NCBI RefSeq assembly: GCF_023347275.1
Contig: NZ_CP094468.1
Span: forward strand, 1,240,001 to 1,304,000
Length of the DNA stretch: 64,000 nucleotides
Source of the DNA: Faecalibacterium sp. I3-3-89
GTDB taxonomy: Bacteria; Bacillota; Clostridia; Oscillospirales; Ruminococcaceae
Direction: 5' to 3'
In this document: positions 5,378-33,596 of the stretch, piece by piece
Layout of the letters: each line of letters starts with the position of its first letter
Position numbering within the stretch: the first letter of the stretch is position 1
Made by a program: the position numbers and the translations under genes
The notes under the pieces: generated by a model
What the model was told of the DNA's origin: nothing
What the model saw: only the letters and a program-made list of their open reading frames with translations
Database searches by the model: none

Positions 5378-5406
5378 TTTACATTATAAAATAATTGTGG
5401 TATAAT
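5378..5406 (+). promoter_or_regulatory. Strong sigma-A promoter of uvrB-uvrA
   Basis: TTTACA (5378-5383), a 17-base spacer and a perfect TATAAT (5401-5406) precede uvrB by about 50 bases. Confidence 0.8.
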
Positions 5407-5410
5407 AGCG

Positions 5411-5433
5411 CTACGACATACAACTAATCGTAG
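5411..5433. promoter_or_regulatory. Inverted repeat in the uvrB leader, possible operator
   Basis: CTACGA (5411-5416) and TCGTAG (5428-5433) are perfect inverted 6-mers just after the -10 box, where a repressor such as LexA would act. It does not match the usual Gram-positive GAAC-N4-GTTC LexA box, so the regulator is unknown. Confidence 0.3.
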
Positions 5434-5454
5434 TTTCAAAAAGGAGGGCTTTTT

Positions 5455-17671: not shown

Positions 17672-18862
17672 CTATGGTCCAGCAGAGCTGGACAAATCCG
17701 AACTTTTTCCTTCCACCCCATCAGCGGTCAAAGTGTCCTCAAAACGGACGGTTTGGGTGCCATCCTTGTAGTTGAACGTAATCAGCAGAGGGATCGTTGT
17801 GTTCTCCTGATTCTGGACATCCATGACCAGTTGAACGATCTTGTCGATCACCACATCGTCCTGAATCAGCTTCATGGTCTCCCGGACGACCAGATCTTCC
17901 AGCCAGTCCTTCTGCACGGTCTTTTTGTTGCAGCCCTTGCGCCGCTTGACGTTGGCGCATTTATAATAATAGTAGGCGCGTCCGGTGGCACTGGTTCCGC
18001 TTTCACCGAACATCAGCACACCGCATTTGCCGCAGAACAGCTTGGTGGTCAGCAGATATTCCTCGTCTGCCTTGCCACAGGCAGGGGCACGCTTGTTCTT
18101 ATCCAGACGCTTCTGCACCCGGTCAAACAGGTCTTTCGGAACAATAACCGGAATTGCATCCGGCACAACGATATCCCAGAAAGACAGTTCGCCAATGTAC
18201 CGGCGGTTCTTCAGCATGGTGTTCACGCTGCTGTGGGTCATTTTGCCGCCCAGCATATTGCGGACACCCTTGTCGTTGAGGAAGTTTACGATTTCCACCA
18301 TCTTATCGCCGTTGTCATACCGCTGAAAGGCTTCCAGTACCAACGGAGCGGTCAGCGGGTCAAGATGATAGAACTTGTCATCGTCGATTTTATAGCCGAT
18401 GGTTCCCGTACCGCCAGTACACTTTCCCTTCAAAGCATTCTCCGTCTGGCCACGAATCACCTTTTCGGACAGCTCTGCCGAATAGTATTCCGCCATACCT
18501 TCCAGGAGGGTTTCCACCAGAATGCCCTGTGAACCCTCGGCAATGGGTTCCATAACGGAAATCAGGTGGACACCGTTCTTTTTCAGGATCATCTTATAGT
18601 TTGCGCTATCAAAACGATTCCGGGCAAAGCGGTCAAATTTCCAGACGAGAACAACATCAAACAGCTTTTTGCCGCTGTCTTTGATCATCTGCTGGAACTC
18701 CGGGCGATTGTCCGTTTTGGCAGAGAATGCACGGTCAATGTAGTGCTTGATGACCGTAATGCCGTTCTTTTCCGCATAATCTGTGCATTCCCGAATCTGG
18801 CCTTCGATAGATTCTTCGCGCTGGTTATCCGATGAATAGCGGGCATAGATTACGGCGGTCAT
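17672..18862 (-). CDS. Site-specific serine recombinase, internally shortened
   Basis: This 396-residue protein has the resolvase catalytic domain (ARYSSDNQ with catalytic S10, then an active-site arginine region VWKFDRFAR), a recombinase domain, and a zinc-ribbon CGKCG with a later Cys cluster. It matches large serine recombinases of clostridial mobile elements. After ENTTIPLL, where relatives continue into a coiled coil of about 100 residues, the sequence jumps to ITFNYKDGTQTVRFED, which resembles the usual C-terminal strand. This suggests an in-frame internal deletion. Integration activity may be impaired. The start at 18862 follows AAGGAAGTGAG. It is 16 bases after the upstream gene. Confidence 0.85.
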   Translation of the reverse strand: MTAVIYARYSSDNQREESIEGQIRECTDYAEKNGITVIKHYIDRAFSAKTDNRPEFQQMIKDSGKKLFDVVLVWKFDRFARNRFDSANYKMILKKNGVHLISVMEPIAEGSQGILVETLLEGMAEYYSAELSEKVIRGQTENALKGKCTGGTGTIGYKIDDDKFYHLDPLTAPLVLEAFQRYDNGDKMVEIVNFLNDKGVRNMLGGKMTHSSVNTMLKNRRYIGELSFWDIVVPDAIPVIVPKDLFDRVQKRLDKNKRAPACGKADEEYLLTTKLFCGKCGVLMFGESGTSATGRAYYYYKCANVKRRKGCNKKTVQKDWLEDLVVRETMKLIQDDVVIDKIVQLVMDVQNQENTTIPLLITFNYKDGTQTVRFEDTLTADGVEGKSSDLSSSAGP

Positions 18863-18878
18863 AGACTCACTTCCTTTT

Positions 18879-19418
18879 TTATCGAACAGATGGGTAGCTT
18901 TTTGCATACTTGTAGATCTGGCGCGCACAGTCGAGGCTCATTTTGCTGGAATCGTTATGTTTGAGCCATGCATTCACATTGCCGGGATTCAGCTTCAAGT
19001 CTGTGTAGAGACGATAATTCGTCAGTTTCTTTTTCTGCTGAAGTTCCAATACCCGGCGATGGATCAACGCTTTCGTATCATTGTCCGCAAGAGAGGTATC
19101 CCGCACCGAGCAATAGCTGCGCCAAACCTTCAAATAGCCTTCCGGCAGTTCTGATGATTGCTTTTCAAGAAGCACCAGCATTTGCTCCAGCGAATAGAGA
19201 TTAGAAAGTTGCTCATATTCCGCAGCAATCGTACTGTTTGCGGTGTAGCGGAGCAGCAGTTCTACTTTATCAAAGGCCAAAGCATAGAGAAACAACGGTT
19301 CTTTCAGGCGGGGATTCTCGCTCAGACAATCTGCCAGCTTATGAATACTAGCCGTCTGCACCCCGGAAAGCTCTGCCACATACTGCTTCAAGAAACCCTC
19401 AAATGTCAGCTTTCGCAT
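18879..19418 (-). CDS. Helix-turn-helix-like partner of the nucleotidyltransferase
   Basis: This 179-residue protein is mostly helical. Its last third (KKKLTNYRLYTDLKLNPGNV and NAWLKHNDSS) resembles a DNA-binding helix-turn-helix as in XRE-type proteins. It overlaps the end of the upstream nucleotidyltransferase gene by 13 bases and is followed 16 bases later by the serine recombinase, so the three form one operon. By context it could be the antitoxin or regulator of a two-gene addiction-like pair. I choose ATG 19418 with GGTGGAG upstream; a GTG at 19427 is possible. The function is inferred. Confidence 0.55.
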   Translation of the reverse strand: MRKLTFEGFLKQYVAELSGVQTASIHKLADCLSENPRLKEPLFLYALAFDKVELLLRYTANSTIAAEYEQLSNLYSLEQMLVLLEKQSSELPEGYLKVWRSYCSVRDTSLADNDTKALIHRRVLELQQKKKLTNYRLYTDLKLNPGNVNAWLKHNDSSKMSLDCARQIYKYAKSYPSVR

Positions 19419-20041: not shown

Positions 20042-20602
20042 TCATCGAGTTGAAGCATTCAACCGGCACTCATTATTCAACGGTCTAAGGTACACACTGT
20101 CTCCAACACATCCTTTTAGGTCTGTTCTGCTAATAATCATCCATGTGATACCGTTTCCATCTTCATCCTCCAAATCACATCTATAAAATTGATAGCCAAA
20201 CACCTCTAACACAATATTTACTGTAAATGTTTCGTGCTTAACACACAAAAAACCAAGTGTGAGAAAAAATATCAAAAACAACGCAACGCTTTTCCATTGT
20301 GTGAAGTCAAATGCAAACAATGGTAAAATATATGAAAGTAAAAATTCTGATGTCACCGTTTTTTCTTCGGTAACAGTAAGTATTGTATATCTTTCAGCTT
20401 CAGAGTTTGCTTCTACTCGAAGTTTTTTTAACACGAAAACAAGAGATATTGAAAAGACAACTAGTATTGTTGAAATGCCTATCTTCTCTATACCTGATGA
20501 CTGAGTATCTTCTAAAAGGCTCACAGTGTCAACAAAAATAACAGACAACCATAATGGCGCAAATGATATGAAAAACAATGCGCTTGTAAAAAGTTTTGAC
20601 AC
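20042..20602 (-). CDS. kwaA: Kiwa-like membrane protein KwaA
   Basis: This is about a 186-residue protein with four hydrophobic segments (about residues 5-22, 40-58, 87-103 and 105-122), then a cytosolic tail containing a GYQFYR motif as in KwaA-type proteins. Kiwa is a two-gene anti-phage system in which membrane KwaA pairs with DNA-binding KwaB. Here the kwaB-like gene lies immediately upstream in the same operon. I place the start at GTG 20602, because GGGAG lies 8 bases before it; GTG 20617 would overlap kwaB more. KwaA sequences diverge strongly, so assignment rests on length, topology and the partner gene. Confidence 0.6.
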   Translation of the reverse strand: MSKLFTSALFFISFAPLWLSVIFVDTVSLLEDTQSSGIEKIGISTILVVFSISLVFVLKKLRVEANSEAERYTILTVTEEKTVTSEFLLSYILPLFAFDFTQWKSVALFLIFFLTLGFLCVKHETFTVNIVLEVFGYQFYRCDLEDEDGNGITWMIISRTDLKGCVGDSVYLRPLNNECRLNASTR

Positions 20603-20607
20603 TCTAT

Positions 20608-21525
20608 TCACTCCCACTTTCGAGGACTGGACACTTCCATCGGAAGATCATCAAATGGGTCAACCATACCTTTATTACATAGCAGTTTAACAAGCTTTTC
20701 AGAAACACCGTTTTGTGTTGTGTCGAATTTTCCTTCAAGCAACGGAAGACCAAACTTTTCGGCCAAACGTCTTCTATCATCCGAATTTTCTAACTTTTTT
20801 AAATGCTCGTCATTAAAAGCCACAAATCTTCTCGGATTATGGCCACTTGATGCACATGTCCTAAACAACTCAAAATCTGTCACAATGCGCATTTTTTCTA
20901 CTGCTGCAACTTTTTGCAAACAGATTCCCTTATATGCTCTTTCTATATTAAAAAGTTTTTCTCCTGCCATGGATAGCATATAAGCTGTATCGTCTATTAT
21001 TATAATATCCAAGTTGGTTCTGAGTGAAAGTACTTTGTTATCGATTTCGCTAAATGTGCCACTCGATTCCCAAAATTTATGCCGCAATGTTGTAATCGGA
21101 TTTTGCATTGAAAAAAGTTTAATACGATAATCTTCTCCATTTATACTTAGGGTTTCTTTGATTAGCTGAGCCGATGCGGAAAATTTCAAAGGATTAATTT
21201 CCACATCTGGTTTCGATATCGCTTCTTGAAGTGTTTTAAATTCATCACAAATCAATACATTTTCCGCTGGTAGCTCATAAATTGTTTGTGCATCAGCACT
21301 CCCATCATATTCTTTTACGGTATGATATTTCTTAAATTCTTTTTTGTAATGATCAGAAATTTCACCAACAAAATGAGTCAGTCTTCCCTCTGGTGAAAGA
21401 TTGACCTTACAAGTAGAATAACTTGTTTTATTTTTTGCCGACACCTTAATTTTGAGGAGTTGAAGGCTTAAGGAACTTCCTTCTTGGAGCTTATTAAAGA
21501 TGGACTCAATTTGCTCTAATGTCAT
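20608..21525 (-). CDS. kwaB: Kiwa-like effector KwaB (DUF4868 domain)
   Basis: This 305-residue soluble protein matches the DUF4868/KwaB pattern: a mixed N-terminal half, then LRTNLDIIIIDDTAYML, a core FNIERAY segment and a C-terminal helical part ending near LLCNKGMVDPFDDLP. The family length is about 300-315 residues. In Kiwa, KwaB acts with membrane KwaA against phage DNA. It starts 16 bases after hsdR with a good GAGGAAGAG site, so it is cotranscribed with the restriction gene. In the original E. coli system kwaA precedes kwaB; the order is reversed here. I am fairly sure of the family. Confidence 0.7.
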   Translation of the reverse strand: MTLEQIESIFNKLQEGSSLSLQLLKIKVSAKNKTSYSTCKVNLSPEGRLTHFVGEISDHYKKEFKKYHTVKEYDGSADAQTIYELPAENVLICDEFKTLQEAISKPDVEINPLKFSASAQLIKETLSINGEDYRIKLFSMQNPITTLRHKFWESSGTFSEIDNKVLSLRTNLDIIIIDDTAYMLSMAGEKLFNIERAYKGICLQKVAAVEKMRIVTDFELFRTCASSGHNPRRFVAFNDEHLKKLENSDDRRRLAEKFGLPLLEGKFDTTQNGVSEKLVKLLCNKGMVDPFDDLPMEVSSPRKWE

Positions 21526-21541: not shown

Positions 21542-24500
21542 TCAAATCGTCATATTGTCCGTCCACATCTCACACTGGCTAATGACCGTGCTGATTGCCG
21601 TATCATAATCTTCCGGTGGATACTTATACTTTTTCAGAAGGTGCTTCACCATCTTACGCATACTCGCACGAGCAGTTTCTTTTTTCTGCCAGTCTATTGT
21701 CCGATTTTTGCGCAGCATTTCCGTAAGTTCTCTGGTTAAGTCAATCAGTTCATTGTTTTGGTAGAAATCCTTGATGTTTTCCGGCTTTGTCAGAGCATCG
21801 TAAAAAGCCAGTTCTTCCTGCGTCAAGCCCAGCTTTTTACCGTTGTTATACAGTTCTGTAATCTCCTGTGCCGTTTTCAGAAGTTCCTTGATGACCTCCT
21901 CGTTTGTAATCAAGCCATTGTAGTAAGAGTTCATCAACTGTGTAATCTTTTCTGAAAACTTCTGAGACTGCACAACATTTGTCCGTTTATACAGTGAAAC
22001 TTGCTCTGCCATAAGTTTTTTCAAAATTTCTACGGCAATGTTCTTTTCCTTCATTTTTGAAATTTCATCCAACACCGCCGGGTCAAACAGGCTGATATTT
22101 TCATCTGCCTTCTTACTGTCAAACAAACTGATAACACCTTGACTCTGGATACTTGCTTTCAGCAGTTCATTGATTTGAGCATTGATTTCTTTCAAAGAAA
22201 GTGTCTTGCCGCCACTCCCACCATAGGTGATCTTCACCACCGTAGAACGGACTGCTTCCATATAGGCCGCTTCATGTCGCTCCTGCTCCGTGGTCATGCT
22301 GGAACACAGCGAATGCGACTGTTTCAGCAACAGAGCTTCTCGCAGGAACAGATCTTTGCGCTTGGGTGCTTTTGCGTCCAGAACAAAGTTTACGCCGCCA
22401 GTGACCAGCTTTGCCATCATCAACGGAGAACCACCAATAAATCCGCTGAAATCAAAGCCGTGCAACAAATCTTTGCACACCTGAAGCTTTTCCTGAAACT
22501 TTGGATAAGCAACTTTGGCAATGTCCATATCGCCATATCGGGACTGGTCACGCTTGGTATACTCCTTCATAGCGGCTTTGAGGGCAGATGCAATGCCAAC
22601 GTAATCTACAATCAAGCCGCCCTCTTTGTCCTTAAACACGCGGTTGACACGCGCGATGGCCTGCATCAGATTGTATCCGTGCATTGGCTTGTAAACATAC
22701 ATCGTAGCCAGTGAAGGCACATCAAAACCTGTCAGCCACATATCCACAACAATGGCAATCTTCATCGGGTCATCGTTGTCTTTGAATTTCCGGGCAAGTT
22801 CTTCTTTGTGAGATTTTGTACCGATGATTTCTTTCCAATCCTCCGGGTCATTGTTGCCACCCGTCATAACTACGCCGATTTTTTCGTTCCATGTCGGGCG
22901 CAGTTCCAGAAGTTTTCGATAAATCTTCATCGCAATCGGGCGCGAATACGCCACGATCATCGCCTTGCCCGTCAAAAGATTAGCGCGGTACTTTTCGTAA
23001 TGGTTGACAATATCTTCGCACAGCGATTGAATGGTAGAGTCTGCCCCCAGCACACTCTCCATCTGCCCCAACATCTTTTTGCTTTTTTCAATCGTTGCAG
23101 CGTCCGATTGCTGTTCCAGCGCATCGTAGGTCGCATCAATCAAGGCCAGCGTATTTTGGTCAAGGTGGAGTTTGATAACGCGGCTCTCATAGTAAACCGG
23201 ACGCGTTGCGCCATCTTCCACCGCCTGTGTCATATCATAAATATCGATATAATCACCAAAAACTTCACGCGTATTTCTATCTTTTGCCGAAATCGGCGTT
23301 CCCGTAAAGCCTATGTAGGTTGCATTTGGCAAGGCATCATGGATGATACGGGCATTGCCAATGACCGTATGTGCTTCTTTTTCACCCTGTTCATTTTCTT
23401 TGATGACAATTTTCTCATCAAAACCATACTGTCCACGGTGGGCTTCATCCGCCATCACCACAATATTTCTCCGTTCGGACAGCGGCTTCTCGCCACGCTC
23501 AAACTTGAACATCGTGGTGAAGATAATGCCATTTGCTTTTCGACCATCCAGCAGGTTGCTCAGATTTTCCTTGCTGGTTGCCTGTACAGGTATCTGGCGC
23601 AAAAACGGCGCACACTTGGCAAACTGCGTGTAAAGCTGATCGTCAAGGTCAATGCGGTCAGTCATCACAACAATAGTTGGACTGTTCAGAGCTTCTTGCA
23701 GCAAATGGGCATAGAATACCATCGACAGCGATTTTCCACTGCCCTGCGTATGCCAGAACACACCGCCCTTGCCATCCGTTTTGGTGGCAATTTTGGCCTT
23801 TTCAATAGCTTTTCGCACCGCAAAATACTGGTGGTATCCAGCCAAAATCTTAATCAGCTTTTGCCCATCACCGAAAAACAGGATAAAATTTTTCAGAATA
23901 TCCAGCAATCGTGCTTTCTGGAACATTCCCTCATAGAATGTGTCAAACTGCGCATACGCCGTATTTTCGTAATCGCCATCCTTTGTTTTCCACTCCATAA
24001 AACGGTCAAGTCCAGAAGTGACTGTTCCCGCCTTGTTGGTCGAAAGGTCACTGATTACGCAGATTGCATTATAATAGAACATCGAAGGAATGTCCTTCAT
24101 ATAGTTCCGAATCTGGTTATATGCGTTTTCTGCGCCCACTTCGTCCTTGGAAGGGCTCTTTAACTCCATCAAAACCAGCGGCAATCCGTTGATAAACAGA
24201 ATAATATCCGGACGGCGGTTGTTTCCGTTTTCTACGAAGGTATATTGGTTTACCACATAGAAATCATTTTTGTCTGCATCCGAATAATCAATTAGCTTTA
24301 CTACCGAAGACCGTTCCTCACCCTTGACTGCATATTTGACCGTGATACCGTTTTGCAGGTAGTCCATAAAAACAATATTCTTCTGCAATAGACTTCCTGC
24401 ATCAAAATCATTCAGTTTCAAGATTGCCTCATCAATCGCCACAGCCGGCAAACCGCAATTCAACCGCACCAGACAATCTCGCAAAACATCATCCAACAAA

Positions 24501-24610
24501 GGGCGACTGTAATCAGTCCGGTTCATATCGGGAGCATAGATATGGGTGTAGTCCATGTTCTCAAACAATTCGATTATGGCTTGTTCAAAGGTGTCTTCAT
24601 TGAAAAGCAT
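21542..24610 (-). CDS. hsdR: Type I restriction endonuclease subunit R
   Basis: This 1022-residue HsdR has an N-terminal nuclease domain with PD (134-135) and ELK (149-151) of the PD-(D/E)xK core, followed by SF2 translocase motifs: Walker A HTQGSGKS (287-294), DEAHRGQYG, GFTGTP and the QAIARVNR motif VI. A C-terminal helical region binds the methyltransferase. It cuts DNA after ATP-driven translocation when recognition sites are unmodified. The start at 24610 has GGTGGAG upstream; it lies 20 bases after the FRG-domain gene. It is separated from hsdM/hsdS by the invertible cassette and the FRG gene. Confidence 0.95.
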   Translation of the reverse strand: MLFNEDTFEQAIIELFENMDYTHIYAPDMNRTDYSRPLLDDVLRDCLVRLNCGLPAVAIDEAILKLNDFDAGSLLQKNIVFMDYLQNGITVKYAVKGEERSSVVKLIDYSDADKNDFYVVNQYTFVENGNNRRPDIILFINGLPLVLMELKSPSKDEVGAENAYNQIRNYMKDIPSMFYYNAICVISDLSTNKAGTVTSGLDRFMEWKTKDGDYENTAYAQFDTFYEGMFQKARLLDILKNFILFFGDGQKLIKILAGYHQYFAVRKAIEKAKIATKTDGKGGVFWHTQGSGKSLSMVFYAHLLQEALNSPTIVVMTDRIDLDDQLYTQFAKCAPFLRQIPVQATSKENLSNLLDGRKANGIIFTTMFKFERGEKPLSERRNIVVMADEAHRGQYGFDEKIVIKENEQGEKEAHTVIGNARIIHDALPNATYIGFTGTPISAKDRNTREVFGDYIDIYDMTQAVEDGATRPVYYESRVIKLHLDQNTLALIDATYDALEQQSDAATIEKSKKMLGQMESVLGADSTIQSLCEDIVNHYEKYRANLLTGKAMIVAYSRPIAMKIYRKLLELRPTWNEKIGVVMTGGNNDPEDWKEIIGTKSHKEELARKFKDNDDPMKIAIVVDMWLTGFDVPSLATMYVYKPMHGYNLMQAIARVNRVFKDKEGGLIVDYVGIASALKAAMKEYTKRDQSRYGDMDIAKVAYPKFQEKLQVCKDLLHGFDFSGFIGGSPLMMAKLVTGGVNFVLDAKAPKRKDLFLREALLLKQSHSLCSSMTTEQERHEAAYMEAVRSTVVKITYGGSGGKTLSLKEINAQINELLKASIQSQGVISLFDSKKADENISLFDPAVLDEISKMKEKNIAVEILKKLMAEQVSLYKRTNVVQSQKFSEKITQLMNSYYNGLITNEEVIKELLKTAQEITELYNNGKKLGLTQEELAFYDALTKPENIKDFYQNNELIDLTRELTEMLRKNRTIDWQKKETARASMRKMVKHLLKKYKYPPEDYDTAISTVISQCEMWTDNMTI

Positions 24611-24630
24611 ATTCTTTCTCCACCAATAAA

Positions 24631-25914
24631 TCAATCTTGATTTTTTTCGAGCTCTTTTGTGATGGCATCAACTATATCGTCAATGATTGACTTTGACACA
24701 GTTTTTGCCATAGGGCGTTCCATCGATGAATATTTCTGTAAGGTATCTGCTAAGGCTTTTCGTGCCTTACTCTGCCCAATTTCTTTGTTGTACCAATCAG
24801 GAATCAAGCTTTCCTGAACTGCAACATAACATTCATCAAAAAGAATCGGATTGATTTTCTTTTTCAAAATGTCTCTAACGATTTGACTATCTTCGACATG
24901 TGGTGTTTTCTCCAGTGTTGCAGTATCACCATTCATTGAAGCCACATCAAACATTTCAAATGGCTCATCTTGTAGGGATGGCATGTTTACATGAACATCT
25001 TTTATATACGCCATTTGGTGTTCCAATTCAGGGAATAAGCTTCCTTCGTTTATATTGTAAAAATCCAACTCCCTTAGAATGTGCTCTTTTGATTCTGCCG
25101 GGATCCTAAAGCTGAATTCATCAAATTCGTCCCGAACATTTTTATAGGCTCTTTTTATAATGTATTCTCCAGCCCCCTCTCCTGCGATCTGAATATTATA
25201 TTGTCCGCAGATCAAGAATGAGCCATTTTGCCTTTTCAAACGTTCGTTATTAAGATTTGATAAAACAAAATAGTTGTTCTGAATGATTTCAATGATACTC
25301 TTATATCCATTTTTTCTGCAATTGACCGCATCAGCTTTTGAATAGATGCCTTCCTTCTGAAGCTTGTCGAGTAACGTTTCCAACTTGAAGTTTCCTGTTA
25401 TCTTTTCTGTTGCCAAATAGGACAGAACCTTAATCTCGTCATCGTCATACGATTTTCCATACTCCTGCTTAAAATAAACGCGTCCGTCCGTTGGCGGCAA
25501 CAACACAGTCTTCCCATCTGAAATCGATATATCTTGATTGGTCTGGCACGCAAAAAACAGAGCAACCAATGGATTTTCTGTAACATCCAATAGTCTTGTT
25601 GGCAGTCCGTAATGCTGCAACTTTGCAAGCTTTTCAAACGCCGTTATCGTATCGCCGAAGTCTCTTGGGTTCCGTATGTACGCAGCACGAATCATATCAT
25701 ACTCGTGCGCCAACATTCCGTTACGAAATATTCCCGGCATAACATTCCAATCATAGCTGGCTTGTCCTCGAAAGAAATAATGCTTCGCGCTCTCTTCGGG
25801 TTCCACATTAGCCATTTCATTCTTTATCAGCGAAATTCCGTCCAAATAGCCATTCAGATCCCAGACAACCCAACTGTCATGGCTACTGGTTCGTGTTTTG
25901 TCCGAATTATCCAT
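24631..25914 (-). CDS. FRG-domain protein in the restriction island
   Basis: This 427-residue protein contains an FRG domain, named for the YFFRGQ motif (FRG at 48-50), with the later HYGLPTRLLD (101-110), ENPLVALFFA and an LRELDFYNINEGSLFP segment. FRG proteins occur near defence systems and are suspected effectors or nucleic-acid or nucleotide modifiers, but the activity is not settled. The C-terminal 150 residues are a charged helical region. AAGGAA lies before its ATG. The upstream inverted repeat at 25935 is only 20 bases from the start, so the gene has little room for its own promoter. Linkage to hsdR is tight (20 bases). Confidence 0.8.
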   Translation of the reverse strand: MDNSDKTRTSSHDSWVVWDLNGYLDGISLIKNEMANVEPEESAKHYFFRGQASYDWNVMPGIFRNGMLAHEYDMIRAAYIRNPRDFGDTITAFEKLAKLQHYGLPTRLLDVTENPLVALFFACQTNQDISISDGKTVLLPPTDGRVYFKQEYGKSYDDDEIKVLSYLATEKITGNFKLETLLDKLQKEGIYSKADAVNCRKNGYKSIIEIIQNNYFVLSNLNNERLKRQNGSFLICGQYNIQIAGEGAGEYIIKRAYKNVRDEFDEFSFRIPAESKEHILRELDFYNINEGSLFPELEHQMAYIKDVHVNMPSLQDEPFEMFDVASMNGDTATLEKTPHVEDSQIVRDILKKKINPILFDECYVAVQESLIPDWYNKEIGQSKARKALADTLQKYSSMERPMAKTVSKSIIDDIVDAITKELEKNQD

Positions 25915-25934
25915 GTTATTCCTTCATTTCTTTT

Positions 25935-25964
25935 ATAAACGATAATTTAGAGCAGCAAGCCGCC
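25935..25964 (+). repeat. Inversion repeat R1
   Basis: Contains the core ATAAACGATAATTTAG (25935-25950) and extends to 25964. The 29 bases at 25936-25964 are the exact reverse complement of 28789-28817 (R4). It codes for the INDNLEQQAA junction of HsdS. Confidence 0.85.
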
Positions 25965-26576
25965 GCATTGTTTTCAAGCCTCTATAATCGATCAAATACT
26001 GAGGTTAGATACACCGATTTAATACAAATACTCGGCGGTGGAACCCCCAAGACAGGCGAAACCGCGTATTGGAACGGTAATATTGCTTTCTTTACTCCAA
26101 AAGATGTTGGCACACCATATACATTTATCACAGAAAAGACTATTACAGAAGAGGGACTTTCACATTGCAATAGCCGACTATATCCTGTGAATACAGTTTT
26201 CGTTACGGCAAGAGGTACTGTTGGCAAAGTTGGTCTGTCCGGAATTCCGATGGCTATGAATCAATCCTGTTATGCACTTGTCGGCAAGGAAACACATCAG
26301 CTTCTTGTCTATTTTTACACCCTCAAAGCTGTTGATAGACTTAAGCATAAAGCAAGTGGAGCTGTATTTGATGCGATTACCACTAGAGATTTTGATTCAG
26401 AGCAAATCATGAAGCTATCTGATGATGATGCTAAAGCGTTTCTCTGTGTTGCAGAGCCAATGTTTCAGGAGATGCTTAACAATAGTATCGAAAACTTGCG
26501 GCTTTCAACACTACGGGATTTCCTGTTGCCCAAGCTAATGTCTGGTGAGATTGACGTCTCTTCCGTTCAGCTCTAA
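25935..26576 (+). pseudogene. Silent C-terminal half-cassette of HsdS (inverted)
   Basis: The frame from the repeat at 25935 reads INDNLEQQAA, then a complete target-recognition domain starting VRYTDLIQILGGGTPKTG, then the conserved C-terminal LPKLMSGEIDVSSVQL and a stop. It is equivalent to the second half of the expressed hsdS (28150-28817) but on the opposite strand. It has no ribosome site or start codon of its own; an ATG at 25893 lies outside the homology. It would be expressed only after inversion joins it behind an N-terminal half. I therefore list it as a silent cassette, not a dead gene. Confidence 0.85.
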
Positions 26577-26596
26577 GCTGCTAAATTATCGTTTAT
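26568..26596 (-). repeat. Inversion repeat R2
   Basis: The core ATAAACGATAATTTAG occurs on the minus strand at 26581-26596, with the extension CAGCTTAGAGCTG shared (one mismatch) with R3. It lies at the stop codons of both half-cassettes, which converge here. Confidence 0.8.
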
Positions 26597-27043
26597 CGCT
26601 TTATTTACTGCGATTTTCTTGTCTATCGTTGATAAAACAGATGCAATCTTCTGCTGTGTTTCAAAATCTGGAAAACGAACAATTTCTTTGTGCACAGTGT
26701 TTCGGTTGATTCCAGGAACTGCACTTGCTGATGCAAATTTTTTCCATTCAAGTGTCTTCAAAAAATAGTACACGAATTTTTCATCGTTTTCATGAAAATT
26801 TTCCACGTACAGAGTTGTGTTTAATGGCCAAAAAGATGTTTCTGCAAAAAAAACTTCTCCGATCGTTCCATATCGTCCTGTAATTACTCCCGGTGCTTCA
26901 ACCATTGCTTCATTATGTGTTCCCGTTACACCGGAAGAGGAAAAGATTGGAATCTCGCCATTTTTCCTCTTTTGCTGGGGCAAGTCATATCCTCTTTTCA
27001 GGGTAACAAATTCTCCAAGCTCATCTATTTTCCATATTGCCAT
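26573..27043 (-). CDS. hsdS: N-terminal half HsdS (alternative specificity half)
   Basis: This 156-residue protein has one complete target-recognition domain (starting IWKIDELGEFVTLKRG) and the first conserved helical spacer (KIASVLSTIDKKIAVNKAINDNL), then stops two codons after repeat R2. It has its own ATG with GAGG 7 bases upstream and follows the recombinase stop by 9 bases, so it can be translated as a half subunit. Inversion at R1 and R2 would fuse it to the silent C-terminal half and make a second full HsdS. Half-size S proteins can sometimes function as dimers. Confidence 0.85.
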   Translation of the reverse strand: MAIWKIDELGEFVTLKRGYDLPQQKRKNGEIPIFSSSGVTGTHNEAMVEAPGVITGRYGTIGEVFFAETSFWPLNTTLYVENFHENDEKFVYYFLKTLEWKKFASASAVPGINRNTVHKEIVRFPDFETQQKIASVLSTIDKKIAVNKAINDNLAA

Positions 27044-27052
27044 GTTTGTACC

Positions 27053-28036
27053 TCAACCAATAAATTTCCTATGTGCCAATTTCACATTTTGTTGTTTTAC
27101 CATTGCATAGCGCATCGTTGTGTCAATTTTCTGGTGTCCTAAAAGCTGCTGCACCTGTTCAATCGGCATTCCCTTGTCAATTGCTGATGTTGCCAATGTA
27201 CGCCGGAACTTGTGCGGGTGCACCTTATTTAGCTTCAATCGCCGTCCCAATTCACGGAGCATCGTTTCCACGCCACCGATCATCAATCGCTCGTGCGGCT
27301 CTTTCAGCGTCACAAAGAGCGCTGGATTGCTATCTGACCGTTCATCCAGATAATTTTGAAGGTGGATCTTCGTCCGTGCGTCAAAGTATACCAATCGTTC
27401 CTTGTTGCCCTTACCAAATACAACACATTCGCGCTCGTTGAAATTGATATCCTCCCGATTAAGTGTCACCAATTCCCCGACACGCATTCCAGAAGATGCC
27501 AGCAAATCAATAATCGCCAAATCTCGTACTGTTGAACAGTTGTCACGCATCAGCTCCAACGCTTCATCCGTATACGTTTCCTTGATGATTTTGGCGGTTT
27601 TCACTTTGTGAATCCTGCGGACAGGGCTTTTCACAATAAAATCTTCATCTTCCAGCCACGAGAAGAAACTGGAAAGAATACGCCGGATATTATCAATCGT
27701 AACTTTGCTTGACCGCCGCTGTGTTTGATAATCCGTCAGATATTTTCGCAAATCGTCCGTTGTAATTTGCTGCGGTGATTTTCCAACATCATTCAGCATC
27801 GCTTCGATAGTTTTTGAATAATAAGTCAATGTTTTCTCGGAGCAACCCTCTATCCGTTTTGCCGTAATGAACGCTGCTGCCGAATCTTGTTCCTCAGCCT
27901 TTGGCTGTTCTTCACCCATTTCAATTATGACACCTTGAAATGACGCTTCCAGCACTGCTTTCAAATGCAGCAACTGTTCGTTATTGAGATACGGCAGCAT
28001 TTTTCGCTGTATCTCGTTGATAATTTGATTTTTCAT
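27053..28036 (-). CDS. Tyrosine recombinase, putative hsdS invertase
   Basis: This 327-residue XerC/D-like recombinase has an N-terminal SAM-like core-binding domain (about 50-145) and a catalytic domain with R185 (MRVGEL), K209, H275 and R278 (PHKFRRT), H301 (LLGHQ) and the nucleophile Y310 (MRYAMV), so it looks intact. It lies inside the segment bounded by the four HsdS repeats. It is therefore the natural candidate to catalyse inversion, as in phase-variable hsdS loci of other Firmicutes. AAGGAG precedes the start. It could also serve integration of the whole element, which is less likely given its position. Confidence 0.88.
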   Translation of the reverse strand: MKNQIINEIQRKMLPYLNNEQLLHLKAVLEASFQGVIIEMGEEQPKAEEQDSAAAFITAKRIEGCSEKTLTYYSKTIEAMLNDVGKSPQQITTDDLRKYLTDYQTQRRSSKVTIDNIRRILSSFFSWLEDEDFIVKSPVRRIHKVKTAKIIKETYTDEALELMRDNCSTVRDLAIIDLLASSGMRVGELVTLNREDINFNERECVVFGKGNKERLVYFDARTKIHLQNYLDERSDSNPALFVTLKEPHERLMIGGVETMLRELGRRLKLNKVHPHKFRRTLATSAIDKGMPIEQVQQLLGHQKIDTTMRYAMVKQQNVKLAHRKFIG

Positions 28037-28073
28037 CGCCGTATCTCCTTATTACGATTTCAGAGAACGACGG

Positions 28074-28108
28074 CAGTGGCAGTTTCTCCATAGAATCTCC
28101 CGCCACTG
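28074..28108 (-). other. Hairpin between hsdS and recombinase
   Basis: CAGTGGC and GCCACTG form a 7-bp stem with a 21-base loop upstream of the recombinase ribosome site; there is no U-run, so it may act on translation or mRNA stability. Confidence 0.35.
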
Positions 28109-28129
28109 GTGAGAGTTATTAAAATTATG

Positions 28130-28160
28130 ATAAACGATAATTTAGCGGCTTAGAGCTGAA
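28130..28160 (+). repeat. Inversion repeat R3
   Basis: The core ATAAACGATAATTTAG is at 28130-28145, followed by CGGCTTAGAGCTGAA, which contains the stop codon of the expressed hsdS on the other strand. It is inverted relative to R2. Confidence 0.8.
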
Positions 28161-29358
28161 TACTCGCGATATCAATTGCGCCAGACATTAGTTTAGGTAA
28201 CAGACTATCTCTTAGCATAGCAAGTGAATGATTTTGCTCTTCCAAGATTTTTTGTTGCGCAAAGATTGGCGCACAGAAACTATTAAATTGGTCAAGTGTG
28301 TTCCGATCAGGAATGATGGCGGGGATATTCTTCATGGCACTTCCTGAAATTTCTTTGAATGTCGAGCCTGATGCTGCACTCTCAATAACCGGAAGACTGT
28401 GTTTCAAGAAAAAGTATACAAACGCTGTTCCAATTTCCGAGTAAGGTATAACAGACTTAAAGCCTTGATTGGTTGTAACTTCATTAGATGCAATTGCAAT
28501 ATATCCGATGGGAGCACGTGATGAAAACAATACTGTACCTTTGGGCATGACTGTTGCACTGCTGTTCTTCAAACCAAGTTCTGTGATATCATTTTCGCCA
28601 TGAGATATGAATTTGGACTTGTTGATAGATAAATCTTTTGGCGTTATCCACGCAATACCATTATTGGTATAGTATTCAGGCTTGGTTTTTGAAGGCGTAC
28701 TACCGCCCACAACAGTTCCAAGGTCACTTATTGTGCTGATTTGCCACATGGGATTTGCATTGTTGATAAATAATTCTTGAAAATAGGTGGCGGCTTGCTG
28801 CTCTAAATTATCGTTTAACTCCTGATTATTCTCAATCTTTCTTTGAATTGTGGTGATAATCTCGACCACACGTTTCTGAATACTCAGTTCAGGTAGCGTA
28901 ACTTCGATTTGTTGAAAAGTTGAAGACGGTCTTGCCAGTGCAGGGACACCAACCTGTGAGGCATTGCTAAGAAGTTTATACTGCCCTATCGGAGTGTGAA
29001 AGTAATAGACAAGATATTCAGGCAAAACTTTATCATTGCATCTAACCCTAAACTGAGATTGCGAAATCACATACCGGTCATATCTTGAATCTTGCGGAAT
29101 AAAAACTATCTGTCCAAGCGTTCCTCTATGTGTTATTACAATATCTCCGCGATGTGCATTCGCTTTGTTAAGAGAATCAGCTTTTTCCTCTGTGACATAG
29201 CGGAACGCCTTTTCAGACAAAGAAAAGCCCTCAAGATTGCTGCCATTTAAGACAGGCACTCCACTGTCCACAAAACAAGATACTTTAATATTTGAGCCAA
29301 ATGGACCCATCGCAATTTCATCAATTAGGTCGGCAACGCGATACGTTTCATAACTCAT
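28150..29358 (-). CDS. hsdS: Type I restriction specificity subunit S (expressed copy)
   Basis: This 402-residue S subunit has two target-recognition domains separated by the conserved coiled coil ending QELNDNLEQQAATYFQELF, where repeat R4 lies. It ends with a second conserved segment LPKLMSGAIDIASIQL. S subunits set the DNA sequence recognised by both methylation and cutting. The ATG at 29358 overlaps the end of hsdM by 11 bases and has GGGGG upstream; a TTG at 29364 is possible. Its C-terminal half is bounded by R4 and R3, so it can be exchanged by inversion. Confidence 0.93.
   Translation of the reverse strand: MSYETYRVADLIDEIAMGPFGSNIKVSCFVDSGVPVLNGSNLEGFSLSEKAFRYVTEEKADSLNKANAHRGDIVITHRGTLGQIVFIPQDSRYDRYVISQSQFRVRCNDKVLPEYLVYYFHTPIGQYKLLSNASQVGVPALARPSSTFQQIEVTLPELSIQKRVVEIITTIQRKIENNQELNDNLEQQAATYFQELFINNANPMWQISTISDLGTVVGGSTPSKTKPEYYTNNGIAWITPKDLSINKSKFISHGENDITELGLKNSSATVMPKGTVLFSSRAPIGYIAIASNEVTTNQGFKSVIPYSEIGTAFVYFFLKHSLPVIESAASGSTFKEISGSAMKNIPAIIPDRNTLDQFNSFCAPIFAQQKILEEQNHSLAMLRDSLLPKLMSGAIDIASIQL
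28789..28817 (-). repeat. Inversion repeat R4, inside hsdS
   Basis: The 29 bases are the exact reverse complement of 25936-25964 (R1). They encode the NDNLEQQAA junction between the two halves of HsdS, so exchange keeps the reading frame. Confidence 0.88.
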
Positions 29359-30850
29359 ATCCAATCGCCCCCAGCTTCTCCTTGATTTCTGCTTCCAGCT
29401 TGTGCGATTGCTTGAACAAATCTGAAAGTTCTGAGGTCAGCCGAACCATTTTTTCTTCAAAAGGTTCACCATCATCTTCCTGTTCCTCAACACCAACATA
29501 ACGGCCCGGCGTTAAAATATAATCCTGTTCTGCAATTTTCTCCGTATCAACAACTGCGCAGAAACCTTTTACATCTTCCAGTGTGCCCTCAACATAGGCA
29601 TTGTAGGTATCGGAAATCTTTTTGATATCCTCATCGGTCAATTCACGCAACTTGCGGCTCACCATAGCACCCATCTTACGGGCGTCAATAAACAGCGTTT
29701 TTCCGGCTTGTTTCTTACGTTTAGAGATAAACCAGAGCGAAACTGGAATCTGGGTCGTATAGAAAAGCTGTGTCGGCATGGCAATGATGCAGTCCACAAG
29801 GTCAGCATTCACAATATTTTTGCGGATGTCACCTTCACCGCCAGACTGAGAGGAAAGAGAACCATTTGCAAGCACCATACCCATGCGGCCACCCGGCGCA
29901 AGATGATAAATCATGTGCTGAAGCCATGCAAAGTTCGCGTTGCTTGCAGGCGGCATACCATACTGCCAGCGGACATCATCTTTGAGCTGCTCTGCACCCC
30001 AGTTCGACAGGTTGAAAGGGGGATTCGCCATAATATAGTCTGCCCGCATGGTCGGGTGCTGGTCGTCAAGGAATGTATCCGCCGCATACTTTCCAAGGTC
30101 GGGTTCAATGCCACGAATGGCAAGGTTCATTTGTGCCAGCTTCCATGTGGTCGGGTTGGAATCCTGTCCATAAATCGAGATATCGTTGATATTTCCACTA
30201 TGGTTCTCTACAAATTTTGCAGACTGAACAAACATACCACCACTGCCGCAGCAAGGGTCATACACTCGTCCCTTAAACGGTTGCAGCACTTCCACCAGCG
30301 TCCGCACAACGCAGGACGGTGTAAAGAATTCGCCTCCGCGCTTTCCTTCCTGCTCTGCAAACATCGACAGGCAGTATTCATAAGTGCGTCCCAGAATGTC
30401 CTTTTCGCTGCCGTGTTCAATCATTTTGATGTTCGTAAACAGGTCAACGACTTCGCCCAACCGACGTTTATCCAGTTCTGGACGCGCAAAATTCTTCGGC
30501 AGAATATCTTTTAGGCGCGCGTTTTCTTTTTCGATAGCGCGCATTGCATCGTCAATTACCTGACCGATTTCCGGGTCATGTGCCTTTGCCGAAACATCGC
30601 TCCAACGCGCACCAGCAGGCACAAAGAAAATTCCTTCCGATGTGTACTCGTCACGATCTTCCTCAAAGCCATCACCGTCTGCAACCAGCTGATTGTACTT
30701 ATCTTCAAAACGATCCGAAATATATTTCAAGAAAATAAGACCAAGGACGACACCCTTATACTCTGAAGCATCCATATTGCCTCGAAGCACGCAGGCAGCA
30801 TTCCAAATCTGTTTTTCAAATCCAATGTCGGCGGTGTTTTTCTCTGCCAT
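29348..30850 (-). CDS. hsdM: Type I restriction-modification methyltransferase subunit M
   Basis: This 500-residue HsdM has an N-terminal HsdM helical domain (about 10-130) and an N6-adenine methyltransferase domain. The SAM-binding motif I is DPCCGSGG (198-205) and the catalytic motif NPPF is at 276-279. With HsdS it methylates host DNA, and with HsdR it forms the restriction complex. GGAGG lies 9 bases before the ATG. It is the first gene of the hsdMS transcript, under the promoter at 30891-30919. Confidence 0.97.
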   Translation of the reverse strand: MAEKNTADIGFEKQIWNAACVLRGNMDASEYKGVVLGLIFLKYISDRFEDKYNQLVADGDGFEEDRDEYTSEGIFFVPAGARWSDVSAKAHDPEIGQVIDDAMRAIEKENARLKDILPKNFARPELDKRRLGEVVDLFTNIKMIEHGSEKDILGRTYEYCLSMFAEQEGKRGGEFFTPSCVVRTLVEVLQPFKGRVYDPCCGSGGMFVQSAKFVENHSGNINDISIYGQDSNPTTWKLAQMNLAIRGIEPDLGKYAADTFLDDQHPTMRADYIMANPPFNLSNWGAEQLKDDVRWQYGMPPASNANFAWLQHMIYHLAPGGRMGMVLANGSLSSQSGGEGDIRKNIVNADLVDCIIAMPTQLFYTTQIPVSLWFISKRKKQAGKTLFIDARKMGAMVSRKLRELTDEDIKKISDTYNAYVEGTLEDVKGFCAVVDTEKIAEQDYILTPGRYVGVEEQEDDGEPFEEKMVRLTSELSDLFKQSHKLEAEIKEKLGAIGYEL

Positions 30851-30890
30851 GGTTCAATACCTCCGTTTTAGCTCAACAAATTCTGCTTTG

Positions 30891-30919
30891 AGTATAGCAC
30901 AGATGTGCTGATTTTCCAA
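30891..30919 (-). promoter_or_regulatory. hsdM promoter with palindromic operator-like site
   Basis: On the minus strand TTGGAA (30914-30919), a 17-base spacer and TATACT (30891-30896). The perfect palindrome AGCACAGATGTGCT (30896-30909) fills most of the spacer, where a repressor could block polymerase. Confidence 0.6.
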
Positions 30920-31012
30920 TTTGTGCGCATAAATTCTTTGCAAGATGCTTCAATTTCCAGTAGATAAGTCCTACTATTACCGCTTTAGCACAATAAATTT
31001 TACAAAACCATC

Positions 31013-31654: not shown

Positions 31655-32089
31655 ATGACCAAAACGAATGTTCAACCGATTCCTAGCAATTCCCAGCACC
31701 ACGACACGCCGAACAATAAAACGCACGTCATCAAGTTCCGTGTGACAGCGGAGGAAAAAACGTCACTGGAACTCACTTGCAAACTCCTGAATCTCTCCCT
31801 CTCCACTTTTATCCGCCGCGCTATCCACAACGTCAAGATCGAGAAAACAGTCATCGTTGCAGGCGGCGGAGAAGAAACCCTGACCACTGTTTCCACCCTG
31901 CTTGCTCAGTGCAGCAAGGTGGGCGGCAACCTGAACCAGCTTGCAAGGCACTTCAATTCTGGCGGTGCGGACACCGAGCAGATCCGGGCGAAACTCCTTG
32001 ACGAACTTGCAGACCTGACTGCATTCCGGCTCAGCGCCGAGAAAGTTCTGGGTGAACTGTATGGCAACGCTCAAGCATATCAGCTCTAA
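31655..32089 (+). CDS. mobC: MobC-like relaxosome accessory protein
   Basis: This 144-residue protein has an N-terminal ribbon-helix-helix-like region (HVIKFRVTAEEKTSLELTCK, then LSLSTFIRRAI) and a MobC-type C-terminal half containing KVGGNLNQLARHFN. MobC proteins bind oriT and help the relaxase nick it. AGGAGG lies just before the ATG. It overlaps the relaxase start by 29 bases. Confidence 0.85.
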   Translation: MTKTNVQPIPSNSQHHDTPNNKTHVIKFRVTAEEKTSLELTCKLLNLSLSTFIRRAIHNVKIEKTVIVAGGGEETLTTVSTLLAQCSKVGGNLNQLARHFNSGGADTEQIRAKLLDELADLTAFRLSAEKVLGELYGNAQAYQL

Positions 32090-33596
32090 AAACTCGGACT
32101 ACTCTGCCATTGAAGCGTACCTCATTTACCAGCACGATGCGTTCACCGGGAAGCAACTTCTGGATGAACAGGGCAAGCCGAAGCTACGGGAATCGTACAT
32201 CCTCGATACACTTGCGTGCGGCGATTTCTCGTTTGCAATGGCCTGTCTGCTGGCAAACCGCAAGTATGGTAAGAACACCCAGCATGGTGATATCAAGAGC
32301 CACCAGTATATCATCAGCTTTGACCCCAGAGATGCAGCCGACAACGGGCTGACGATGGAAAAGGCACAGGCCCTTGGCCTGAAATTCTGCGAAGAAAACT
32401 TCCCCGGTCATCCCGCCATCGTCTGCACACACCCCGATGGGCACAACCATTCGGGAAACATCCATGTCCACATCGTGATCGGCAGCGTCCGAACACGAGA
32501 GGTGGAGCGCAAGCCCTATATGCAGAAGCCCCGCGATTGGCGCGAGGGCATGAAGCACTCCAGCACAGCCCAGACTATGCGGCACCTCCGTGTCGAGGTC
32601 ATGGAGCTGTGCGAGGGTGCCGGACTGTACCAGATCGACCTGCTCAACGGCTCGAAAGAGCGTGTGAGCGAAGCTGAGTATTGGGCGCGCAGGCGCGGTC
32701 AGCAGAAGCTCGACCTTGCAAACGCAGCCCTCACCGCAGCCGGACAACCGTCGCAGCAGAAGAAGTTTGAAACCGTGAAGGACACTTTACGGAAGCAAAT
32801 TTCTTCGGTGTTGTACCGCACAACGAGTTTTGAAGAATTTTCCGACAGGCTCATGCAGCAGTATGGTATTGCCGTCAAGGAAAGCCGTGGGTGTCTGAGC
32901 TATCTGCCCGCTGGCAGAACGAAGTTTATCCGGGCGAAACATCTCGGTGACAAGTTCGATAAGGCGGCAGTGCTTGACACGTTACAGGCAAACGCCGAAC
33001 GCAAGCCCAAGGCGCAGTTCAAGCAGGATACCATCGGGAAACTGATCGACATCCAGTCGAGGATGACCGAGGGCAAAGGCACCGGCTATAAGCGTTGGCT
33101 CACGAAACACAATCTCAAAGTTATGGCACAAACACTGATCCTCTTGCAGGAGAAAGATTTGCTCAACGAGGGTGATCTGAACCAGCGCATCGCCGAACTG
33201 GAAACCAAGTATCACGATGCACTGGCGGTGGTGAAAGACCTCGAAGGTCGCATGAAATTCAACAAAGAGCTGCGCTATCATGTCGCAGCCTATGCCAGCG
33301 CCAAGAGCGTCGCACAGCAGTTAAAGACTGCCAAACGACCCGCAGTCTTTGAGGAGCAGCACCGTGCAGAACTGACAGCGCACCGGGCGGCAGCAGCCTA
33401 TTTTAAGGCAAACAGCATCACCAAGCTGCCCAGCCCGAAAAAGCTGGAAGCCGAGTATGCGCAGCTTGCCTCCGAAAAGGCAAAGTTCTACGAGCAGTAC
33501 AAGGAAGCCAAGGAAGAACTGCTCAAGCTGAAAACCGCAAAGCAGAATGTTGCGTCCTATTTCCGGGAGGAAGGACCGGCGCAGCAGGAGAGATAA
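32061..33596 (+). CDS. MobA/VirD2-type relaxase (mobilisation protein)
   Basis: This 511-residue relaxase has an N-terminal tyrosine region (SDYSAIEAYLIYQHD), the three-histidine metal motif in HNHSGNIHVHIVIG, and a long charged C-terminal part with coiled-coil character (about 320-500). It would nick oriT and lead one strand into a recipient cell using a helper element's channel, since no type IV secretion genes are present. The ATG at 32061 lies inside mobC; a GTG at 32052 is an alternative start. The domain order fits the MobP group common in Firmicute integrative mobilisable elements. Confidence 0.9.
   Translation: MATLKHISSKNSDYSAIEAYLIYQHDAFTGKQLLDEQGKPKLRESYILDTLACGDFSFAMACLLANRKYGKNTQHGDIKSHQYIISFDPRDAADNGLTMEKAQALGLKFCEENFPGHPAIVCTHPDGHNHSGNIHVHIVIGSVRTREVERKPYMQKPRDWREGMKHSSTAQTMRHLRVEVMELCEGAGLYQIDLLNGSKERVSEAEYWARRRGQQKLDLANAALTAAGQPSQQKKFETVKDTLRKQISSVLYRTTSFEEFSDRLMQQYGIAVKESRGCLSYLPAGRTKFIRAKHLGDKFDKAAVLDTLQANAERKPKAQFKQDTIGKLIDIQSRMTEGKGTGYKRWLTKHNLKVMAQTLILLQEKDLLNEGDLNQRIAELETKYHDALAVVKDLEGRMKFNKELRYHVAAYASAKSVAQQLKTAKRPAVFEEQHRAELTAHRAAAAYFKANSITKLPSPKKLEAEYAQLASEKAKFYEQYKEAKEELLKLKTAKQNVASYFREEGPAQQER

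Follow-up and report, generated by a model that had tools for sequence, protein, structure and literature searches.

A probable four-site hsdS shufflon with a structured recombinase leader in Faecalibacterium sp. I3-3-89

The 64,000-nucleotide stretch of Faecalibacterium sp. I3-3-89 analysed here (the window; assembly GCF_023347275.1, contig NZ_CP094468.1, positions 1,240,001 to 1,304,000 of the forward strand) carries a type I restriction-modification (R-M) locus that is best explained, with good confidence, as phase-variable, its tyrosine recombinase exchanging DNA at four copies of a short core in and around the specificity gene hsdS. Comparison with related loci shows that the two cassettes encoding C-terminal HsdS halves are almost always arranged to give one, and only one, full HsdS, and the recombinase gene is preceded by a covarying leader. 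Type I systems with phase variation are generally portrayed as switching at random. A leader that occurs, in the sampled genomes, only before this recombinase opens regulation of the switching rate to direct test, and the one-full rule, which holds across dozens of species, is a constraint for any model of the switch.

Layout of the locus and its recombination sites

The core, TAAACGATAATTTAG, is 15 base pairs (bp) long, encodes the NDNL stretch at the junction of the N- and C-terminal halves of HsdS, and occurs in four exact copies in the orientation order + - + -. R1 (25936..25950, plus strand) marks the start of the second C-terminal half, C_B, 21 bases from the start of the FRG gene in the open reading frame (ORF) list; R2 (26581..26595, minus strand) lies at the end of the second N-terminal half, N_B, and the 3' end of C_B; R3 (28131..28145, plus strand) lies just past the hsdS stop; and R4 (28803..28817, minus strand) is the joint of N_A and C_A. 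A preliminary description, made from the letters of this DNA, had reported four core copies with R2 and R4 on the minus strand, which proved exact. It had also placed all of them precisely at joints of HsdS halves; this stands for R4 but not for R3, which is 3' of the gene, while R1 is the start of a C half now lacking an N half and R2 is a point at which N_B and C_B meet tail to tail. The 29-base identity that it gave for R1 and R4 is borne out when counted from the first core base; R2 and R3 are identical over 16 bases counted in the same way, and the longer arms are imperfect. No fifth copy within one mismatch was found in the 2.8 Mb genome, where the reversed control pattern also gave zero. 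With up to three mismatches the window has five matches against 0.69 expected, a number reached by 0 of 100 shuffles; the fifth lies at position 7503 and carries three mismatches.

Family profile searches of the window proteins recovered hsdR, hsdM and hsdS, a complete type I R-M locus. Along the minus strand the order is hsdM, N_A, R4, C_A, R3, the leader, the recombinase gene, N_B, R2, C_B (reversed), R1, the FRG gene, hsdR and Kiwa-like genes. As in an inverting type I system, extra hsdS sequence lies inverted and shares inverted repeats with the expressed gene, and an intact recombinase gene lies within the locus. The methyltransferase gene hsdM (29348..30850, minus strand; N6_Mtase 1.5e-114, HsdM_N 8.9e-28; PADLOC MTase_I) is overlapped at its end by the hsdS start, an ATG at 29358 (the ORF list begins at a TTG at 29364), and hsdS as sequenced (28150..29358, minus strand; two Methylase_S stretches, 1.1e-34) fuses N_A to C_A to give the sole full-length HsdS. 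N_B (26573..27043, minus strand; Methylase_S 2.5e-20; ORF list) has its own ATG, 9 bases past the recombinase stop, while C_B (25936..26576, plus strand; Methylase_S 2.3e-13) lies in silent orientation. The restriction subunit gene hsdR occupies 21542..24634 (minus strand; TIGR00348 1.2e-175). The tyrosine recombinase that the preliminary description had noted as intact is so: its XerA-like ORF of 327 amino acids (27053..28036, minus strand) matches Phage_integrase at 1.1e-33 and NF040815 at 245.5 bits against a cut-off of 220, with a putative catalytic set R185, K212, H275, R278, H301 and Y310 assigned by eye from motifs and XerA alignments.

In the sequenced state N_B encodes a half HsdS of 156 amino acids: from the AAC of the core its frame runs six codons (NDNLAA) and then stops, at a stop supplied by the 3' end of the C cassette itself, read antisense, where it overlaps the sense stop of the cassette. 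Among 98 cassettes of 49 loci, 74 have the antisense stop exactly six codons from the AAC, and a two-base overlap of the stops occurs in 59 of the 98. The occurrence of each N half as a truncated half-HsdS also was missed in the preliminary description. Promoter and terminator scans gave 16 promoter-like sites against 10.4 in shuffles (standard deviation 2.8, thus about two standard deviations above) and two terminator-like sites against 4.7.

In the mechanism proposed for this strain, the recombinase would exchange DNA at the four copies of the 15-bp core. The N halves would stay fixed, each with its own start (N_A overlapping hsdM, N_B directly behind the recombinase gene), and the C halves would be mobile cassettes, each between inverted cores. 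If an N half faces a cassette's start, it would be read into a full HsdS; if it faces the end, it would meet the in-frame antisense stop and yield a clean half. The possible products would then be N_A+C_A, N_A+C_B, N_B+C_A and N_B+C_B as full forms and N_A and N_B as half forms. A walk through the four possible inversions gave 16 DNA states with these four full and two half forms, in agreement with the earlier expectation of at least four HsdS products; from the sequenced state, N_A+C_B and N_B+C_B are one step away and N_B+C_A two. The leader would keep translation of the recombinase low or conditional, making switching rare or triggered, and selection or paired recombination would remove cells with two full HsdS or none.

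Rearrangement among relatives and the one-full rule

Relatives were all collected through the window's recombinase, in searches of samples of 297, 31 and 394 genomes, and 80 of 94 confirmed loci were kept in one set; in the sample of 394 genomes of the order, 16 carry the recombinase at E values up to 1e-100. The alternating four-site arrangement recurs in 51 of the 104 recombinase-bearing sequences tabulated, and 6 more have three sites. Rearrangement is seen among four Lactococcus plasmid loci (pJM2A, pUC073A, pUCCL627F and pJM1A) in which hsdM, N_A, the recombinase and a DUF3800 gene are 100% identical over the aligned lengths: between pUCCL627F and pJM2A the two C halves, C_a and C_b, are exchanged and inverted at the sites, and pJM1A has C_a in both slots, its N_A gene being a half and its N_B gene full. 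In loci L038 and L039 N_A (190 amino acids) and N_B (171 amino acids) are 100% identical, and the same C half lies forward in slot 1 of one and reversed in slot 3 of the other. A model of swapping only, in which cassettes move by direct-repeat excision and reintegration alone, is ruled out because both of these pairs show cassettes flipped as well as moved. Closer to the window, its silent C_B recurs at 98.5% identity in both slots of L125, a Faecalibacterium locus, where one copy stands in the expressed slot, in frame with an N_A, and close Faecalibacterium loci differ in state (the window, L125 and L046 class I, L126 class II, L127 both half). State labels placed on the recombinase tree require 21 changes against a shuffled mean of 21.3; this scatter, as if shuffled, suggests switching faster than host divergence. 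Comparison thus shows that relatives rearrange at these sites, and the recombinase would do the exchange in this strain too. The preliminary reading of a compact phase-variable specificity system is supported as the best one, with the four-site layout recurring and the Lactococcus loci differing at the sites.

The halves might instead be moved by RecA-dependent recombination, with homology supplied by conserved HsdS sequence alone. N and C halves are indeed mosaic between species, and five loci (L125, L036, L076, L136 and L157) carry identical (100%) copies of a single C half in their two slots and have lost the other one (L076 is the sole both-full locus); such doubling needs an exchange between two copies of the locus. 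Against this, the sites are short (15-29 bp identical), share one core and have their breakpoints at it, and pneumococcus without the recombinase PsrA loses inversion at the 15-bp inverted repeat IR1 while inversions at IR2 and IR3 are still detectable, according to the parts of that report available (PMC4948785). RecA acting by itself is therefore improbable, and most likely both processes act, with site-specific shuffling accompanied by occasional homologous exchange between sister copies.

Among the 54 loci whose recombinase segment is forward, N_A gives a full HsdS and N_B a half in 25, and it is the other way round in 24; both are half in 4 and both full in 1. One full and one half HsdS thus stand together in 49, and the two cassettes are not independent of each other (Fisher p = 3.2e-10). 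The result holds in phylogenetically independent pairs differing in slot 1 (12), in which slot 3 differed in the opposite way in 9.3 on average, in the same way in 0 and not at all in 2.7 (median p 0.004). That relatives are nearly all one full plus one half, and not spread across the possible states, had been missed in the preliminary description. The count omits L049 (positions and states as in L048), L053 (broken frames) and L056 (N_A beyond the contig), and tallies apart the loci with a reversed recombinase segment (L050, L060, L063, L064, L065 and L067). L055 was placed by hand in the forward set because its hsdM lies upstream, and twelve further loci were added with assignments made by hand (L041, L045, L143, L147, L152, L154-L157, L160, L162 and L163). 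Also not counted were L158 (arrangement and alleles as in L155), L161 (rearranged), L025 and L059 (three sites, reversed segment), L166 (reversed, one C half) and L151, L153, L159, L164 and L165, while L131 was taken as class I despite a short C frame of 115 codons and L138 as class II by its first unit.

Two explanations of the one-full rule survive. Selection, to which we give an even chance, would act because two full HsdS leave sites under-methylated, to the harm of the cell, and none leaves it unprotected, so that such cells are lost before sampling. The both-half and both-full states exist but are rare, which speaks for selection. The rule is automatic in the Bacteroidota-type layout, whose two N halves compete for a single C slot, and there 2 of 4 loci (L065 and L067) have cassettes that are not opposed; these numbers are very small, however, and L050 and L063, which are also reversed, are opposed. 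Loss of restriction is usually tolerated in culture, which counts against selection. The second explanation, somewhat short of an even chance, is mechanical: only R1xR4, R2xR3 and the direct-repeat exchanges R1xR3/R2xR4 would occur, keeping the cassettes opposed, and the R1xR2 and R3xR4 flips would be blocked. The allowed moves keep opposite orientation by construction (the inversions as listed by the state walk, the direct-repeat moves by reasoning), and pUCCL627F differs from pJM2A exactly by an exchange with a flip. At L161, on a Ligilactobacillus salivarius plasmid, two C cassettes stand in tandem before the recombinase (5267-8500), in slot 1, and none was found after it, in slot 3, as excision and reintegration would leave them. 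This pathway predicts frequent reversal of the recombinase segment, however, and outside the Bacteroidota type only L025, L050 (a spirochaete metagenome-assembled genome, MAG), L063 and L166 are reversed, against 54 forward. In addition, recombinase genes are enriched in both "regulatable" and "non-regulatable" orientation near hsdS invertons in the accessible text of a survey of gut invertons (PMC11892184), which suggests flips of single cassettes on either side of the recombinase. The present data do not tell a recombination pathway that keeps the cassettes opposed from selection for one active specificity.

Several points weigh against the proposed switch and its rule. This strain is known from one arrangement, that of the assembly, as it would be if the locus were a frozen relic in which repeats and recombinase persist and exchange no longer occurs. 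Five of the 54 loci break the rule, and three of the four both-half loci (L127, L143 and L163) are single-contig or complete records, so that assembly errors are not easily the cause. L138 contains a tandem duplication of the unit of leader, recombinase, N_B and C half, giving two full HsdS. The state counts draw on one assembly per species, plasmids and one contig from a viral collection, and draft and MAG assemblies may show the majority form only. Since the loci were found through the recombinase, its presence beside the sites is no independent evidence, and the orientation of its segment is nearly fixed within a group, where free inversion at R1xR4 or R2xR3 predicts otherwise. A frozen relic is nevertheless highly improbable, with frames and catalytic set intact, cores exact and the close Faecalibacterium loci in different states.

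The leader of the recombinase

A conserved element (28038..28115, minus strand) is found between R3 and the start of the recombinase gene. Covariation across an alignment of 37 leaders shows it to be a structured RNA, with the leader of the recombinase mRNA folding as a pseudoknot and a hairpin over the ribosome-binding site. Stem S1 (28115-28111 with 28101-28097, minus strand) and stem S2 (28108-28102 with 28080-28074, minus strand) form an H-type pseudoknot, and the S3 hairpin (28071-28063 with 28047-28038, minus strand) covers the Shine-Dalgarno sequence AAGGAG at 28050-28045. In the alignment 95.5% of cells pair, against at most 64% when the partners are slid by one to three columns, and 12 of 21 pairs change on both sides against a shuffled mean of 5.9, with 0 of 500 shuffles as high. 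Two S2 pairs have at least five and at least six changes, always on both sides, on a quick tree of 36 recombinases. The window's leader has a fold z of -2.78 and matches the leader model (labelled R1, like the site) at 83.8 bits, being itself one of the model's 37 rows. That the element is a DNA operator and not an RNA structure is unlikely: inverted repeats do lie beside a gene for a DNA-binding product, but an operator would conserve sequence, so that bases which change while pairing is kept, as in the two S2 pairs, count against it, and S3 includes the ribosome-binding site.

The leader model covers S2 and S3; pseudoknots cannot be modelled. Among 394 genomes of the order it gave 9 matches, spread over 8 genomes, and among 398 genomes of the phylum 3 at E < 1e-12; the window's own match turned up in both scans. 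All 11 distinct strong matches lie directly upstream of this recombinase, both scans having used stricter filters by which weak matches are lost. Three weaker phylum matches (L180-L182, E 7e-4 to 6e-3) precede unrelated genes and are attributed to chance. Among the scanned sources, 45 of 87 yielded strong matches (46 in all, two in L138). A search of 4227 Rfam families against window positions 25800-31000 and the L029 leader gave no match near a gathering score, the sole listings being mir-3012 at 18 bits, bxd_2 at 10.7 bits and, in the cassette, speF at 14.4 bits against a gathering score of 37, which was taken as chance. Two observations go against the leader as the controlling element: S3 pairs less well (91% of cells against 98-99% for S1 and S2), and many relatives of the recombinase lack the leader.

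Gating of switching at the level of translation would be consistent with the energy needed to open the ribosome site, which is 9.9 kcal/mol for recombinases (n=70) against 4.7 for hsdM (n=58) and 5.1 for hsdR (n=33; p = 1e-14 and 4e-10). This test kept only starts with a Shine-Dalgarno-like stretch, excluding 6 of 15 chosen examples (L064, L070, L072, L082, L095 and L101, all Bacteroidota), and its shuffles preserve only the base composition of the flanks. Recombinases without the element also have a closed ribosome site relative to hsdM (n=33, median 9.1 kcal/mol, p = 3e-8), so translational gating may be general in the family. A different hairpin lies over the ribosome site in L140, L139, L144 and L146, which have no pseudoknot, for example GGTGGTACA/TGTACCACC in L140.

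Tentatively, and with doubt prevailing, the leader could represent a new class of regulatory RNA in which an H-type pseudoknot controls the hairpin over the ribosome-binding site. Switching would in that case depend on conditions and not be random, responding for example to a protein or ligand (free HsdM/HsdS, the recombinase itself) or to phage attack, and together with the one-full rule would amount to a regulated exchange of the single active specificity subunit, with the half HsdS perhaps a working partner. A truncated HsdS is able to have its own specificity in NgoAV, as cited in the available part of a survey of inverting systems (PMC7394358). Were the leader a sensor, restriction specificity might be changed on demand, for instance once phage have overcome the present one.

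Two further observations concern the recombinase family. On the archaeal Methanosphaera plasmid pNP174 (L164), a 60% identical recombinase lies near DUF2207 genes, with no hsd gene annotated within 7 kb; judging from this locus, the family may shuffle other genes too. A planctomycete MAG contig (L047) has the recombinase and the leader element with no hsd match, and may be chimeric.

Gene neighbourhood and comparison with known systems

The slot between the last site and hsdR holds exchangeable genes, with at least one ORF of 80 codons in 25 of 39 loci tabulated. In the window it is filled by an FRG-domain protein (24631..25914, minus strand; FRG 2.6e-19; PADLOC candidate PDC-S15, 3.1e-148). 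The ten slot proteins scanned include FRG in L057, as in the window, a CAP12-type TIR protein in L125, a GmrSD-like protein in L029, AbiU2 in L040, a PD-Lambda-3 A match in L026 and an SpbK match in L146; in the same scan L030 and L034 gave no match and L038 only zinc ribbons. The slot frame of L131 is an hsdR N-terminus with an AbiU2 remnant. Right after hsdR in the window (20042-21525) lie KwaA- and KwaB-like genes, scoring below the NCBIfam cut-offs (68.8 of 100 and 30.2 of 200 bits), KwaB being above that of Pfam (34.0 of 26.3); such scores point to a divergent Kiwa system. A serine recombinase (17672-18928) and a DUF6036 gene on one side and NikA/MobC-like and relaxase genes on the other (31655-33596) suggest a mobilizable defence island.

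The pneumococcal tvr locus is said to rearrange by excision-reintegration. Shufflons of the kind proposed for the window are already in print, in papers of which the accessible parts are used here (PMC6458302; PMC11892184; PMC7394358; PMC4948785; PMC7096588). No publication on the one-full rule, or on an RNA leader before a recombinase of this type, was found in a literature covered by titles and abstract openings with subscription journals mostly outside, which is weak evidence of absence. The lactococcal megaplasmids pMPJM1 and pMPJM2 carry a "type I RM shufflon" (PMC6458302) and, judging from strain and size, are probably the large JM1 and JM2 plasmids analysed here; in the available text of that paper the names pJM1A and pJM2A belong to other, smaller plasmids. 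Like the window, the lactococcal shufflon on these large plasmids has two N halves, two C halves, a recombinase between them and a further gene before hsdR, while its core is the variant TAAATCATCATTTAG and the leader model scan did not find the pseudoknot leader there. Gut inverton group 145, in which hsdS occurs with a tyrosine recombinase, a relaxase and MobC (PMC11892184), likewise has invertons over HsdS genes with recombinase and mobilization genes nearby; the main text, as available, contains no Faecalibacterium, and its hsdS section no leader RNA or state rule.

The STAXI motif resembles the leader in being a pseudoknot-type element near integrase genes (PMC2864571), but the Rfam scans, which covered the window locus and the L029 leader, gave no STAXI match, and each recombinase leader has one strong match to the leader model where STAXI, by the available description, consists of tandem pseudoknots. 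A REBASE survey of inverting systems (PMC7394358) includes, in the part available, the four-way inverting hsdS of Streptococcus suis, which like the window has two hsdS copies and four HsdS products; its repeats lie before the 5' target recognition domain (TRD) and between the TRDs, whereas here, among the 25 longest of 35 inverted pairs, none lies before the two N halves. The pneumococcal cod/SpnIII locus with PsrA is also a type I locus with its own tyrosine recombinase and a 15-bp inverted repeat, and its inversions and excisions have been shown by experiment (PMC4948785; PMC7096588). It differs, in the accessible text of these reports, in its three hsdS genes and three pairs of repeats (IR1-IR3); methylome data suggested that hsdSA is the one functional gene among the three. 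In the window, by comparison, the N halves appear fixed, each with its own start, and only the C cassettes would move.

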